The notes under the pieces are model-generated. The model was not told the origin of the DNA. It searched no databases and saw only the letters and a program-made list of their open reading frames with translations. Below are positions 57,401 through 64,000 of a stretch of DNA of 64,000 bases, piece after piece. Both the position numbers and the translations under genes were made by a program. The DNA comes from Leptospirillum ferrooxidans C2-3 (GTDB lineage Bacteria > Nitrospirota > Leptospirillia > Leptospirillales > Leptospirillaceae). The stretch spans positions 1,209,486-1,273,485 of the forward strand of contig NC_017094.1 in the NCBI RefSeq assembly GCF_000284315.1. The letters are read 5' to 3'. The first letter of the stretch is position 1. Every line of letters starts with the position of its first letter.

Positions 57401-57922
57401 ATGAACCACGTCAACCTCGATGCCATCAGGAAAACAGTCGAAGTCTTCACGAAAGAACCGGAAAAGGCCGTCAAGGAAAATGTCGTGAATGGAGAATGGG
57501 TAATGGAGGAGTCCGGTCCCCAATTCAAGGCAACCCTGTCCTATGAAAAAGGATCGGCAACCCTTACGATGGACAACCCGACGCCCATGGGCGGGACAGG
57601 GAGTGCACCCAATCCGCTTCAGTTTTGTCTTTTTGGAATGGCCTCATGTTTTGCATCCACGTATGTGATGGTCGCGACCCAGAAGGGGGTGGTGATCGAT
57701 AAGCTTTCCATCCAGGTCAAAAACACGGTCGATATGACAAGACCTCTTGGCATCTCTCAAAATCCTTTAACGGACGGAGTCAGGATTTCGTTGACGGTCA
57801 AGAGCAAGGCAAACGAGAGCCTCTTGAAGGAAATTGAAGTTCATTCCCGGGAACAGTGTCCGGCGGTTTATTGTCTGACGAATCCGATTCCCCTTTCGAT
57901 TGAGTTGATTACAGAGAAGTAA
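57401..57922 (+). CDS. OsmC-family protein
   Basis: A 173-aa OsmC/Ohr-type protein. The paired redox cysteines appear in GMASCFASTYV and SREQCPAVYCLT. OsmC proteins reduce organic hydroperoxides. AAGGAGAT precedes the start at four bases. A strong hairpin follows its stop. Confidence 0.85.
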   Translation: MNHVNLDAIRKTVEVFTKEPEKAVKENVVNGEWVMEESGPQFKATLSYEKGSATLTMDNPTPMGGTGSAPNPLQFCLFGMASCFASTYVMVATQKGVVIDKLSIQVKNTVDMTRPLGISQNPLTDGVRISLTVKSKANESLLKEIEVHSREQCPAVYCLTNPIPLSIELITEK

Positions 57923-59391: not shown

Positions 59392-59420
59392 TTGACATCG
59401 TCAGAGCCCTAAGACATAAT
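59392..59420 (+). promoter_or_regulatory. Sigma-70 promoter of the arsR operon
   Basis: TTGACA (59392-59397), 17-base spacer, CATAAT (59415-59420). The -10 box lies within the left arm of the operator palindrome, so a bound repressor would block polymerase. Confidence 0.75.
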
Positions 59421-59449
59421 TACACTGATCAGTGTAATTATGTCTTAGG
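59408..59449 (+). promoter_or_regulatory. Perfect 42-bp palindromic operator of the ArsR repressor
   Basis: All 21 pairs from the centre (between 59428 and 59429, TGATCA) outward match. Left arm covers the -10 box; the right arm runs into the AGGAGAG ribosome site of arsR. It is a strong autoregulatory operator candidate and would also form an RNA hairpin hiding that site. Confidence 0.85.
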
Positions 59450-59456
59450 AGAGATC

Positions 59457-59870
59457 ATGACGATTCCTTCCCCTTCATCAAAGTTTGTTTCTTCCCAGAC
59501 GCCCGAGATTGAGACGAGACCGCTTATAGACTCTCCTCTCGCAAAGGGCCTTGAGTCCGTTTTTAAAATCCTGGGAAACCACACCAGACTTCGACTGCTC
59601 CACGCGCTCGTTCGCCACCCGGATCTGTGCGTCGGGGAGATTGCAGAAGCCATAGGAATGAAGCCTCAGGCCGTTTCCAACCAGCTTCAGCGTCTTGCCG
59701 ACAAGGGAATCCTTGTTTCCAGGCGAAGTGGGCTGAAAATTCATTACCGGATCGTGGATCCTTGTGTTGTGAGTTTACTAGACAAGGGGCTGTGCCTCGT
59801 CGAAGACCTTCCTCAAAAGAGTCCCTCTGTGCTCAAGATATCTGAGGGGGTCCCCACCTATGAAGAATGA
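59457..59870 (+). CDS. ArsR/SmtB-family metal-responsive repressor
   Basis: A 137-aa winged-helix repressor. The helix-turn-helix is EIAEAIGMKPQAVSNQLQRLADKG, followed by LVSRRSGLKIHYRIVD (wing). The metal-candidate Cys lie in DLCVGE, DPCVVS and GLCLVEDL, the last two resembling the C-terminal Cys site of CmtR-like members. It starts six bases after the operator palindrome. The next gene begins 11 bases before its stop, so they are translated together. The cognate metal is not determined by sequence. Confidence 0.9.
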   Translation: MTIPSPSSKFVSSQTPEIETRPLIDSPLAKGLESVFKILGNHTRLRLLHALVRHPDLCVGEIAEAIGMKPQAVSNQLQRLADKGILVSRRSGLKIHYRIVDPCVVSLLDKGLCLVEDLPQKSPSVLKISEGVPTYEE

Positions 59871-61029
59871 ACCGGCAATCCCGACGGCCTCAAATGTGGC
59901 GGCCGGGCACTTGCTAGAAGCCTCTTTGGCCAGAAAATGCTGGCCATGCGGATGCTTCCACGACGCATTACGTTCTCTTGACACATCTCTTCCTGAATCG
60001 GGGTGGCCGGTGGTTCTTTCGGATGCGATCCGCGGCGGGACAGAAAAACTCACTGAACGCCGCTATGACTGTCTGGGGTGCGAGGTATGCTATCCCGCAC
60101 TGGCGTTGAATGCGTTAAGCGAGGAGGGGGGTGCTGTGTCGCTTGAACCTTGCCCGACGGATCTCCCAAAAGCACAGGAAGGATGGCCACCTCTTCCTGG
60201 GGACTACCGGGTCCTTCGTTACCAGGCACCGGTCGCGGTATGCACTCTGAGCGATGTCCGGTTATTCGAAACACTTTCTAAAAGTGTCGAGACGGGACTT
60301 TCCATTATCGGAACCCTCCATACAGAAAACCTCGGCATCGAACGGATCATCACCAACGTTCTGGGCAATCCCCATATCCGATTTCTGATCGTTTGCGGAG
60401 CGGATTCAAGGCAGTCTGTTGGACATTTGCCAGGACAATCGCTGGTCTCCCTGATGTCAGCAGGGCTCGACGAAAAGGGAAAAATAAATGGAGCGTTGGG
60501 GAAACGGCCGATACTTAAAAACATCGGTCGGGATGCCGTTGAACATTTCCGGAACGTGATCACATTGCTCGATATGCAGGGTGTGGAAAATCAAGACGAA
60601 ATTCTGGCACGGATCCGGGAGTGCACGACCAGAAACCCGGGGCGATCCGATCCTTTTCCATCGCTCCCGACAATCGAGGTTTTGACGGGGGATCTCCCGG
60701 CACGGATGGTTCCCGATCCGGCAGGATATTTTGTCGTCTACCCGGATCCTGCCCGAAAAAAACTTGTTGTTGAACACTATCAGAACAATGGCCGGCTGAA
60801 CAAAGTGATCACAGGGATGGATCCGGCTGAAATCGCCACAACGGCAATCAAATATCGTTTGGTTTCCCGGCTGGACCATGCCGCCTATCTTGGGCAGGAA
60901 CTGGCCCGGGCTGAGGCTTCCCTATTTTCCGGAAGCCGTTATGTGCAGGACCGTGCGCCAGAGTCCCTGTTCACTTCCTCAAATGGTACCGGCGCATGCC
61001 AATGCGTTGAAACCTGTACGGAATCGTGA
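59860..61029 (+). CDS. Cys-rich MtrA-like protein (tetrahydromethanopterin S-methyltransferase subunit A / DUF4346-related)
   Basis: A 389-aa protein. Residues 95-265 resemble MtrA, the corrinoid-binding subunit of methanogen methyltransferase: GDYRVLRYQAPVAVCTLSD, GTLHTENLGIERIITNVLGNPHIRFL, CGADSRQSVGHLPGQSL, GKRPILKN, then a linker and DPAGYFVVYPDPARKKLVVEHY. The putative cobalt-ligand His is retained in GHLPGQ. It is framed by Cys clusters absent from MtrA: C27-x2-C30-x-C32, C71-x2-C74-x2-C77 and C380/C382/C386. It is sandwiched between the ArsR and MerT-like genes by overlaps. A metal- or methyl-handling role is inferred; no reaction is assigned. Confidence 0.8.
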   Translation: MKNEPAIPTASNVAAGHLLEASLARKCWPCGCFHDALRSLDTSLPESGWPVVLSDAIRGGTEKLTERRYDCLGCEVCYPALALNALSEEGGAVSLEPCPTDLPKAQEGWPPLPGDYRVLRYQAPVAVCTLSDVRLFETLSKSVETGLSIIGTLHTENLGIERIITNVLGNPHIRFLIVCGADSRQSVGHLPGQSLVSLMSAGLDEKGKINGALGKRPILKNIGRDAVEHFRNVITLLDMQGVENQDEILARIRECTTRNPGRSDPFPSLPTIEVLTGDLPARMVPDPAGYFVVYPDPARKKLVVEHYQNNGRLNKVITGMDPAEIATTAIKYRLVSRLDHAAYLGQELARAEASLFSGSRYVQDRAPESLFTSSNGTGACQCVETCTES

Positions 61030-61436
61030 TGGAACCAGAAAGGGTAAACAAAGAGCCAGAAGAGGAGAAAGGAAGTATTGGACTGATCTTCGGATTCCTG
61101 ACCTCTGTTTTATCCGTGGGGTGCTGTGCTATTCCGGTGGTTCTGATTTCTCTCGGATTGGGTGGTGCCTGGGCCAGCCGGCTTGAATTTCTGGACCGGG
61201 CTCGTCCTCTTCTTATCGTTTTTTCTCTTCTTTCACTTGGGTGGGGCATCCGACGTTACACGGAACGGGGACAGAAGTCCTTGTGTAAACCGAATGATGG
61301 TCCAGGGATTCGGAGCGATCGGGTACGAAAAGGACTATTCTGGGCGGCTGTCGCCGGAAGTCTTTTGATCCTGCTCCTTCCGTGGATGAGCGCCCACTTT
61401 TTCCACCTGAGATTTTTTGATCGGGATACGGACTGA
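61029..61436 (+). CDS. MerT-like membrane metal transporter
   Basis: A 135-aa inner-membrane protein. TM1 contains the vicinal Cys pair SVGCCAIPVVLISLGLGGAW, the hallmark of MerT, followed by FLDRARPLLIVFSLLSLGWG (TM2) and a third helix. MerT normally also has a cytoplasmic Cys pair; here a single Cys (LCKP) remains. Its start overlaps the upstream stop. Likely imports Hg or a related soft metal; no merP or merA is nearby. Confidence 0.82.
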   Translation: MEPERVNKEPEEEKGSIGLIFGFLTSVLSVGCCAIPVVLISLGLGGAWASRLEFLDRARPLLIVFSLLSLGWGIRRYTERGQKSLCKPNDGPGIRSDRVRKGLFWAAVAGSLLILLLPWMSAHFFHLRFFDRDTD

Positions 61437-61503: not shown

Positions 61504-62145
61504 TCACAGTCTCTCTCCAGAAACCATGAGAAGTGATCCAAAAAGGCAGCTGTTTGGTGTAACGGTCTCAAGCACCCTGGCCCATGTCGTTCCTGAAGGC
61601 AGAAAAACAGCGGAATGCATCCTGAGCTTCTGAACTGGCAAATCAGCAAAAAAGCTGGAAATTTCCTGCCGATGATGCCATCGGGCTCCCTGATAAGCCC
61701 CGGTTCCCCCTTCCCGACCCTTATTCCGGTAAAGGAGGCTGTCCCGGTTGAGCCATCCGATGGCAAACCGGCGTTTCGTTACGCGCACGATTTCGCTTGT
61801 GGCCCGCAGTTCGTCGTCGATGAAACAAAGAGCCGCTATAGAAAAGACCCGATCGAAACTTCGGTCAGGAAAAGGGAGTGACCGGGCGTCTCCCCGGATC
61901 CAGCGAATCGTGTCCGGGCCTTTCCTTTTGGCAAAGGCAATCGCGAAAGGATCCGGATCGAGGCCGGTTATATGAAGATCATTTCGAAAGAACCGTCGCG
62001 TGAACCATCCCGTCCCGCACCCGATATCCAGGAGAGAGTCTCCCGCCTGATGATCGAGCGATCGGGAAATCAGGCGATATTCGGTTTCTCCAACCCAAAC
62101 CCCTCTCGGAGATTCATACCAGCCATCGTAGGAAGCGGCATCCAT
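61504..62145 (-). CDS. SAM-dependent methyltransferase
   Basis: A 213-aa class I methyltransferase. The AdoMet motif I is LLDIGCGTGWFTRR, motif II has DPDPFAIAFAK and DARSLPFPDRSFDRVF. It begins YDGWYESPRGVWVGETEYRLI, a segment shared by a group of methyltransferases. The start at 62145 overlaps the cysteine desulfurase stop (TGATG). A longer reading to 62364 is a shadow in the desulfurase. Substrate unknown; metal or metalloid methylation is possible. Confidence 0.82.
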   Translation of the reverse strand: MDAASYDGWYESPRGVWVGETEYRLISRSLDHQAGDSLLDIGCGTGWFTRRFFRNDLHITGLDPDPFAIAFAKRKGPDTIRWIRGDARSLPFPDRSFDRVFSIAALCFIDDELRATSEIVRVTKRRFAIGWLNRDSLLYRNKGREGGTGAYQGARWHHRQEISSFFADLPVQKLRMHSAVFLPSGTTWARVLETVTPNSCLFGSLLMVSGERL

Positions 62146-63282
62146 CAGGAGGTTCGCTCCCGCCATGCGGTGATCAGGAGATTCGCTGAAAAATCGATTT
62201 CCGACTCGGTCGTGAAACGGCCGAGAGTCAGCCGGACTGCACCCAAGGCCCGACTTTTTTCGAGATGCATCGCGAGAAGGACCGGACTCGCCGCATGGAT
62301 TCCCCCATGGCAGGCGCTTCCCGTGGAGGCCGCAATCCCGGGGGTGGCGGAGAGAAGATCCCATCCCTTTACCTTGGGAAAAGAGAGGTTCAGCGTATTG
62401 GGAAGCCGATCCTCAGGATGCCCATTAAGACGGAGTCCGGGGATGGCGGCGGAGAGTCTTCCGTGAAGTTTCTCCCGAAGCCTCTGTATTCTGGCCGGCT
62501 CCTCCCGGAGATTCTCCCGCGCCAGTCGGGCGGCCGTGCCCAAGGCCGCGATATAAGGGACGTTTTCGGTCCCGGGACGAAGCCCTCTTTCATGGCCCGC
62601 ACCTGACATGATCGGAGAGAGCGATATTCCCTCACGTACATACAGGGCCCCAATCCCTTTGGGAGCATAGAATTTGTGGCCGGCAACGGTCAGAAGATCG
62701 GCTCCGATCGTATTCACATCGACGGAGATCTTGCCAATCGCCTGAGCCGCATCAACATGGAACAATGCACCACAGGTGTGGGCAAGGTTCGCAATTTCAC
62801 GCACTGGCTGGATCGTTCCGGTCTCATTGTTGGCGAGCATGACCGATACCAGCGCTGTGTTCTTGCCGAACGCTCTTTCAGCCTCCCGAAGGTCGACACG
62901 ACCGAAGGAATCGACCGGGAGAAGAAGCAGACCCCCAACCCTCCTCCTTCCGGCGTAAAGATGGTTGCAATACCGACGGATGTTCGACGGCTGAAATCAC
63001 AAGGGAGGGGTTGCTTCTTCCCAGTTCCTGAGTGGTGCCCAATATCGCCAGATTGTTGGCCTCGGAAGCGGAACCGGTCAAGACAATCTCGTCCGCTTTC
63101 GCCCCGATCAGAGTCGCCACCTCTGCCCGTGAGAATTCCAGCTGTTCCTTGGCTTCCCGCCCAAAGAAATGATCGGAGGACGGGTTGCCGAAGCGTTCCC
63201 GGAACCAGGGCATCATGGCGTCCACAACCTCCGGATCTACGGGAGTCGTGGCATTGTAATCGAGATAGACCGGCCGAATCAG
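62145..63282 (-). pseudogene. Cysteine desulfurase (NifS/IscS-type), frameshifted
   Basis: Two frames together give a 378-aa PLP-dependent cysteine desulfurase, which mobilises sulfur for Fe-S and thiol biosynthesis. The N-terminal part contains LDYNATTPVDPEVV, HEGNPSS-type GNPSSDHFF and LTGSASEANNLAI. The C-terminal part contains MLANNETGTIQPV, HVDAAQAIGK, the PLP Lys in AGHKFYAPKG and the catalytic Cys in TGSACHGG. The frames meet near 62938-62943, where one extra G in a GGG run explains the shift. The start has no ATG/GTG/TTG; a CTG (63282-63280) overlaps the upstream TGA. Either a sequence error or a true lesion. Confidence 0.75.
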
Positions 63283-63515
63283 TCCAGATCCTTTCGCATT
63301 TCAAGATATTGCTCGCGGGTGATCTCGCCTTTTGCGTAACGTTGGTCCAGCACTTCTTTCGGAGTTTCCTCCTTGCGCGGAGGAGAGGAATTCCCGCAAG
63401 AATCCCCTCCCATTCTTCTCATGAAGACCATCAGGAAAACTCCGAGTCCCGCCAGAAAAAGAAACGGAAAAATCCACATCCAGCCCATCGCCCACATACC
63501 GTTCATCCATGGCAT
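63279..63515 (-). CDS. SHOCT-domain small membrane protein
   Basis: A 78-aa protein: a Trp/Met-rich N-terminal helix (WMWIFPFLFLAGLGVFLMVFM), then a linker and the SHOCT motif LDQRYAKGEITREQYLEMRKDL. GGAGGG lies six bases before the ATG. SHOCT peptides of this form are common in metal-resistance loci. Its stop overlaps the probable start of the desulfurase. Confidence 0.88.
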   Translation of the reverse strand: MPWMNGMWAMGWMWIFPFLFLAGLGVFLMVFMRRMGGDSCGNSSPPRKEETPKEVLDQRYAKGEITREQYLEMRKDLD

Positions 63516-63537
63516 TTTTTACCCTCCAATCATCTGG

Positions 63538-64000
63538 TCAAGTCTGAGCCGGAAACACTTTTGCCAGCCATAAATAATAGCCGGCCACGAGAAACATGAG
63601 CGTGGCGCTTGCATAGCGCACCCAGCTGATTCCGTTGATCCGGCATCCTGCCTCCAGGACCCGGTCGGATGCAACCCCAGCCAGAATAAAGGGGGCACTC
63701 CTGCCAAGACCAAAGGAAAATCCCAGCAAAGCGCCATATGCAGGCGTCATGTGAGGCATCCCCAGGCCGAAAAGAACCATGAGAGAAATCAGTGGAGCGC
63801 CGAGACTATAGACCAGCCCGACAAAAAAAGCCCATGGGATGGTTGCCGGAGTATTGGACTTGAATACGGGATGTCCAGGCGATTTTCTCCGGAGAATCCA
63901 GATTCCCACAAAAAGGGCCAGCCCCACCATGGCGAGGCTCCATATTCGCCGCATTTCCCCGCCAACCATCAACGATACACTTCCGGCGACTGCTCCCAGA
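63538..64000 (-). CDS. CcdA/DsbD-like membrane protein, partial (5' end off window)
   Basis: C-terminal 153 codons of a cytochrome c biogenesis CcdA/DsbD-type membrane protein, with about four helices visible (WSLAMVGLALFVGIWIL, FFVGLVYSLGAPLISLMVLFGLG, GALLGFSFGLGRSAPFILAGV, SATLMFLVAGYYLWLA). The frame stays open to the window edge. It lies upstream of the SHOCT and desulfurase genes. Such proteins pass electrons across the membrane. Being partial, its Cys pair cannot be judged. Confidence 0.75.
   Translation of the reverse strand, partial: LGAVAGSVSLMVGGEMRRIWSLAMVGLALFVGIWILRRKSPGHPVFKSNTPATIPWAFFVGLVYSLGAPLISLMVLFGLGMPHMTPAYGALLGFSFGLGRSAPFILAGVASDRVLEAGCRINGISWVRYASATLMFLVAGYYLWLAKVFPAQT

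Follow-up and report, generated by a model that had tools for sequence, protein, structure and literature searches.

The locus described here raises the question of what a relative of MtrA, recognised in the first-pass annotation as the corrinoid methyl carrier of methanogens, is doing in a metal-type operon of Leptospirillum ferrooxidans C2-3. The window, that is, the whole analysed stretch of 64,000 nucleotides, lies in a genome represented by one contig of 2,559,538 bases. The three overlapping genes that had been proposed for this operon were confirmed at the positions given in Table 1, with ORF calls overlapping by 11 bp (arsR and the mtrA-like gene) and 4 bp (the mtrA-like and merT-like genes), and their families were matched by profile, arsR as HTH_metalloreg (NF033788, E 2.5e-22) and the merT-like product as PF02411 (E 2.4e-13, 50.6 bits versus a cut-off of 32.9). 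The suggestion that the composition differs from that of mer and ars operons was also borne out, and no description of this regulon was found in the literature searched.

Table 1. Features of the operon and its control region, in window coordinates.
Feature	Position	Strand	Remarks
Sigma-70-like promoter TTGACA-17-CATAAT	59392-59420	+	11/12 match; consensus match only
Operator, perfect 42-bp palindrome CCTAAGACATAATTACACTGA/TCAGTGTAATTATGTCTTAGG	59408-59449	.	Candidate; overlaps -10 box; core ATTACA-N8-TGTAAT
arsR	59457-59870	+	137 aa; AntR-class ArsR/SmtB repressor with C58, C103, C113
mtrA-like gene	59860-61029	+	389 aa; MtrA and DUF4346 domains
N-terminal Cys domain (residues 18-104)	59911-60171	+	Invariant C27, C30, C32, C71, C74, C77, C98
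MtrA-type corrinoid domain (residues 105-264)	60172-60651	+	PF04208, E 3.7e-41; Foldseek 5laa
PterinBD-DUF4346 domain (residues 286-364)	60715-60951	+	PF14251, E 3.4e-21
C-terminal Cys tail GACQCVETC	60976-61026	+	Lineage-restricted Cys
merT-like gene	61026-61436	+	136 aa, GTG start; membrane protein, vicinal C33-C34 in TM1, single loop C87

The best PDB match of the window ArsR was 6uvu (E 7e-35), which is 99% identical to a plasmid-encoded protein bearing the annotation AntR, antimonite-responsive repressor. The window protein and this annotated AntR share 57% identity over 110 aa without gaps, and C103 and C113 stand at the same numbers in both. We take AntR to respond to Sb(III) and methylarsenite (MAs(III)), with C103/C113 as its site. 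Because of the AntR-class identity, the operator and the neighbours of other AntR-class genes (further plasmid copies adjoin P-type ATPases, metallothionein, CadD or an ABC module), the repressor is predicted to be a switch of the thiophilic metal(loid) class. The most likely inducers would belong to the Sb(III)/methylarsenite class, with Hg, Cd, Pb and Bi as possible ones. The soft-metal, thiol-based context proposed earlier is retained. Since the repressor is AntR-class, a thiophilic metal(loid) of the Sb(III)/methylarsenite type is a likelier inducer than mercury. A reading restricted to Hg was dropped as the default in view of the repressor class and of MerA, which does not co-occur. The window repressor differs from AntR in what it controls, namely mtrA-merT, whereas AntR's own target is a small protein and a P-type ATPase.

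Both the palindrome and the promoter were detected in the present analysis and are absent from the first-pass annotation. The core of the palindrome (N8 = CTGATCAG) lies 38 bases ahead of the arsR start; the annotated antR gene carries the same core with 0 mismatches, 41 bases ahead of its start. With at most one mismatch, the core was found upstream of 15 of the 47 mtrA-linked arsR genes, the window's own included, and with at most two mismatches upstream of 20 of the 47, compared with about five in shuffles. The window's core is the sole exact copy in the genome; the search for a second copy returned one site with two mismatches, versus one for the control pattern. It is highly likely from these matches that the palindrome serves as an AntR-class operator. 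Metal-type regulation, claimed from the outset, agrees with the AntR-class ArsR and its matching operator, and we have little doubt that the three genes form one operon regulated in this manner.

The MtrA-like protein scored 141 bits against PF04208 (curated cut-off 25), and its AlphaFold model (mean pLDDT 83.5) gave significant matches to MtrA structures only. Structural comparison, which had been proposed earlier as the test of the MtrA assignment, recovered the Rossmann-like MtrA fold, with target-normalised Foldseek TM scores of 0.86-0.89 to 5laa and 5l8x (up to 0.89 for M. fervidus MtrA). In the M. fervidus protein, cobalamin is held by His84 together with Glu54, by the side chains of Asn55 and Asn64, and by Thr53 (PMC4915002). 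The corresponding residues of the window protein, H189, E156, N157, N166 and T155, vary in none of the 48 relatives, H189 being the counterpart of the cobalt-ligand His that had been sought, and Y116 is a Tyr in 44 of the 48. The fold and these residues make corrinoid binding by the MtrA-like protein probable.

The resemblance to MtrA (PF04208; 5laa, 5l8x) thus covers the fold, His84 as the cobalt ligand, Glu54 and most of the contacts to cobalamin. The window protein differs in having no membrane helix or Mtr partners, in a meander that reads GKRPILKN instead of the consensus GAIPF-Y/F-xEN, with an invariant Arg (R216) at the position of MtrA Ile111, and in the addition of a Cys domain, DUF4346, a Cys tail and metal-type regulation. 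MtrH, considered as a possible methyl donor, was not found above the cut-off in any of 41 host genomes; therefore, this is not the methanogen (Na+-pumping Mtr) complex. The full-length architecture corresponds to NCBIfam NF002128, or "DUF4346 domain-containing protein" (E 2e-138), but its score of 461 lies below the equivalog cut-off of 568, and a name derived from methanogenesis is unfitting for these bacteria. That some bacteria possess homologues of MtrA, most of them retaining the His, has already been observed (PMC4915002); no metal context was reported for them in the literature searched.

The Cys residues of the protein are arranged as C27-x2-C30-x-C32, C71-x2-C74-x2-C77 together with C98, and the tail, and all seven N-terminal ones are invariant in the alignment of 48 relatives. 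The N-terminal Cys domain was modelled by AF2 with a pLDDT of 84.6; no PDB fold matched it by profile or Foldseek (PsaC appeared weakly, at a non-significant E of about 2), and profile search found no PDB relative of DUF4346. The name of the latter domain hints at pterins, for which no structural support was found.

The genome-wide scan yielded 62 bacterial mtrA-like homologues or loci, 43-58% identical to the window protein, and is biased in that it was seeded by short query peptides, some of them Cys-rich. An ArsR-type gene stands beside mtrA in 51 of the 60 bacterial loci with enough sequence (21 AntR-type, 25 CadC-type, five other); the CadC-type repressors carry an N-terminal Cys pair and ELCVCD and are near the CadC and Lmo1102 structures. 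The stretch just upstream of mtrA homologues holds ArsR-type genes at 30 times the density of the rest of those loci, which is more than chance would give; in 44 of 61 loci one lies there, at most 1.5 kb away. Most of the ArsR-less loci have RND, MerC/MerR or SMR/CDF genes nearby. In the gene tree, the branch of the window has AntR-type repressors, and these reappear in Acidobacteria, within a group of CadC-type loci; sensor classes have been swapped, and therefore one carrier has been placed under different soft-metal sensors. Downstream of mtrA, thioredoxin and CcdA-like genes occur in about 20 loci, MerC in nine, and SMR or RND pumps elsewhere. MerT, as defined by Pfam, is near mtrA only in the window and in three other loci (L005, L006, L017), and hardly any locus but the window has it immediately behind mtrA. 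Accordingly, of the arsR-mtrA-merT linkage suggested previously, the arsR-mtrA pair proved general, whereas MerT is rare and the exact trio is not general.

Other genes also recur in these neighbourhoods. A membrane protein with a GCCGSP motif, weakly MerT-like and, in the copies tested, above the cut-off of no Pfam family, adjoins mtrA in L003, L010, L011, L014, L016, L044 and L045. A MacB-like ABC permease and ATPase module recurs in L007, L009, L013, L125 and L143, accompanied in several of them by a small conserved protein of a 137-aa family; it stands beside mtrA or, on a Massilia plasmid, behind an AntR-like regulator without mtrA. The homologue on a mobilizable Planococcus plasmid (L141, 464-1840) adjoins an ISL3 transposase.

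Based on these results, we tentatively favour metal(loid)-inducible, corrinoid-dependent methylation by the MtrA-like protein, to which we give somewhat less than an even chance; for methyl transfer in either direction, to or from a metal(loid), the chances seem evenly balanced. Corrinoid methyl transfer to a thiol-bound metal(loid) is suggested because it agrees with three features of the protein: its conserved corrinoid site, a companion domain linked to C1 chemistry, and Cys-rich ends. Further points in favour are the AntR-class repressor with its operator, the ArsR genes adjoining mtrA in 51 of 60 loci with two sensor classes swapped on the tree, the soft-metal neighbours (MerC, MerT, RND, CDF), and the Cys tail, C128 and CGC-type repeats described below. 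A thiophilic metal(loid) would bind the Cys pair of the AntR-class repressor, release it from the palindrome and switch the operon on. The MtrA-like protein would carry a base-off/His-on corrinoid on H189, while the Cys domain and Cys tail may hold the metal(loid), an Fe-S cluster for re-reducing the cobalt, or both. A methyl group, probably from methyl-pterin, would be loaded on cobalt and passed to the metal(loid) held by the protein; the methylated product could be exported or would be less reactive. The MerT-like protein would move the metal(loid) across the inner membrane. Host genomes plausibly supply the corrinoid: CobS was found in 25 of 41, and of the remaining 16, 11 have a MetH-type domain. 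CobS and a MetH-like protein are both encoded in the window's genome.

In effect, the MtrA-like protein would be a one-polypeptide analogue of HgcA plus HgcB built on the MtrA scaffold. HgcAB likewise combines a corrinoid protein with a Cys-rich partner and a nearby ArsR-like regulator, but its corrinoid domain is unrelated, and the window protein has no membrane domain. Only PF04208 and PF14251 matched the window protein, and the CFeSP-type corrinoid domain of HgcA did not. The cobalt ligand of HgcA is a Cys, in contrast to the predicted His ligand of the MtrA-like protein. ArsR-like regulators have been found adjoining hgcAB (PMC7438021), and in methanogens, methylcobalamin-dependent metalloid methylation proceeds via MtaA (PMC6205960). 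MtrA as an in vitro metalloid methylator was dropped as a precedent, the review naming MtaA (PMC6205960).

Several observations count against the methylation reading. The operon has neither MtrH nor another dedicated methyl donor, both CobS and MetH are lacking in five of the 41 host genomes (draft assemblies), the meander is changed, with its Arg in place of Ile111, and the corrinoid chemistry of an aerobe requires reactivation. In addition, the neighbours vary widely, implying no single substrate or transporter.

The main rival is pure metal binding, which we regard as unlikely. According to it, the Cys domain and tail would sequester or chaperone the metal(loid) and pass it to the membrane protein, and the MtrA domain would be a structural or corrinoid-sensing relic with no methyl chemistry. 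The many conserved Cys speak for such a role, as do the metallothionein and P-type ATPase genes adjoining other AntR-class regulators, the Planococcus homologue, in which several CGC-type repeats separate the Cys domain from the MtrA domain, and the lineage-specific Cys tail. When 296 genomes of the phylum (Nitrospirota) were searched by HMM, more distant full-length homologues without an adjacent ArsR emerged, nine of which adjoin parAB (L115-L123); six N-terminal Cys are retained in these homologues, as are H189 and R216, but C128 and the Cys tail are missing. At least two tail Cys are present in 51 of 57 metal-linked homologues versus 0 of 13 in the ArsR-less clades, and C128 in 56 of 57 versus 0 of 13, a contrast that represents one evolutionary split and not independent events. 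Even so, this distribution ties the thiol tail to the metal context. However, a mere scaffold needs none of the residues H189, E156, N157, N166 and T155, which are nevertheless invariant, and DUF4346 is strongly conserved too.

Less likely still is demethylation, in which a methyl group would be taken off methylarsenite, methylmercury or methylstibine onto Co(I) and then passed to a pterin or thiol. The presumed response of AntR to methylarsenite besides Sb(III) counts in its favour, and so does MerC, named by NCBI as an organomercurial transporter, at the nine loci where it adjoins mtrA. As a further precedent, methylotrophic methanogens demethylate dimethylarsenate, with corrinoid proteins discussed as the acceptor (PMC10579292). 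On the other hand, the freed inorganic metal needs a sink, and MerA exceeded the cut-off in only 14 of 48 mtrA-bearing genomes and in one of 18 within the phylum, where the window's genome alone has both. Methylation is preferred to demethylation on the admittedly weak ground that a second detoxifying enzyme would not be required.

Since MerA seldom co-occurs, the system cannot be regarded as accessory to mercuric reduction. The operon shares a MerT-like transporter with vicinal Cys with mer operons (MerT/MerC) but has no MerR, MerP or MerA, and the merA of the genome is located at 154756-156144, about 1.1 Mb away. Against the NCBIfam MerT equivalog model, the MerT-like protein scored 58.9 bits, the cut-off being 150. 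The separate mer-like locus of this genome (L113, 6972-9612; 154 kb in the genome) comprises a vicinal-Cys transporter-like gene, the merA just mentioned, with an encoded N-terminal metal-binding domain, and a MerR-like gene.

A one-carbon backup, in which the protein would act as an alternative methyl carrier (for methionine or for thiols resembling CoM) whose induction follows the poisoning of the normal enzymes by metals, is very improbable: MtrA has been predicted as the methyl donor for MesA methionine synthases (PMC7857596) and the divergent clade beside parAB without ArsR suggests a possible non-metal role there, but the metal-linked loci show no recurring genes of methionine or C1 metabolism, and the metal transporters and Cys tail are left unexplained.

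With regard to the surroundings, a class I SAM-dependent methyltransferase gene that is not closely ArsM-like (61504-62364, - strand) is convergent with the operon. A cysteine desulfurase (NifS/IscS-like) is seemingly split on the - strand (62145-62840 and 62878-63304), with the C-terminal half in one ORF and the likely N-terminal half in the next, possibly a frameshift or pseudogene. Around and beyond the operon (57401-57922, 63279-63972 and L114, 800-2740) are genes for OsmC-like proteins, a SHOCT membrane protein, a 244-aa membrane protein, a metallo-beta-lactamase-fold protein and another ArsR; this set looks like a sulfide/persulfide stress island. The operon was likely gained horizontally; no other match was found among the sampled genomes of the same genus and family, several of which are incomplete assemblies.

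To our knowledge, the genes for biological methylation of Sb, Bi, Pb and Cd are poorly defined, and, as far as we know, hgcA does not obviously account for all mercury methylation. A corrinoid protein that occurs in many phyla under repressors of the antimony and cadmium types offers a concrete candidate for such methylation, and one that can be tested. With a probability that we place a little short of even, these proteins form a class of enzymes that is widespread and has so far gone unrecognised. Induced by soft metal(loid)s, such enzymes would use an MtrA-type corrinoid domain to methylate or demethylate toxic elements independently of ArsM and HgcAB, and would have been recruited under both AntR-type and CadC-type repressors. 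If this is true, bacterial proteins matching the "tetrahydromethanopterin S-methyltransferase subunit A" model would have to be reannotated, and a fold discussed mainly within methanogenesis would acquire a non-methanogenic role. In conclusion, the presence of relatives beside metal-sensing repressors in many unrelated bacteria points to an uncharacterised form of toxic-metal handling, probably by the movement of methyl groups.
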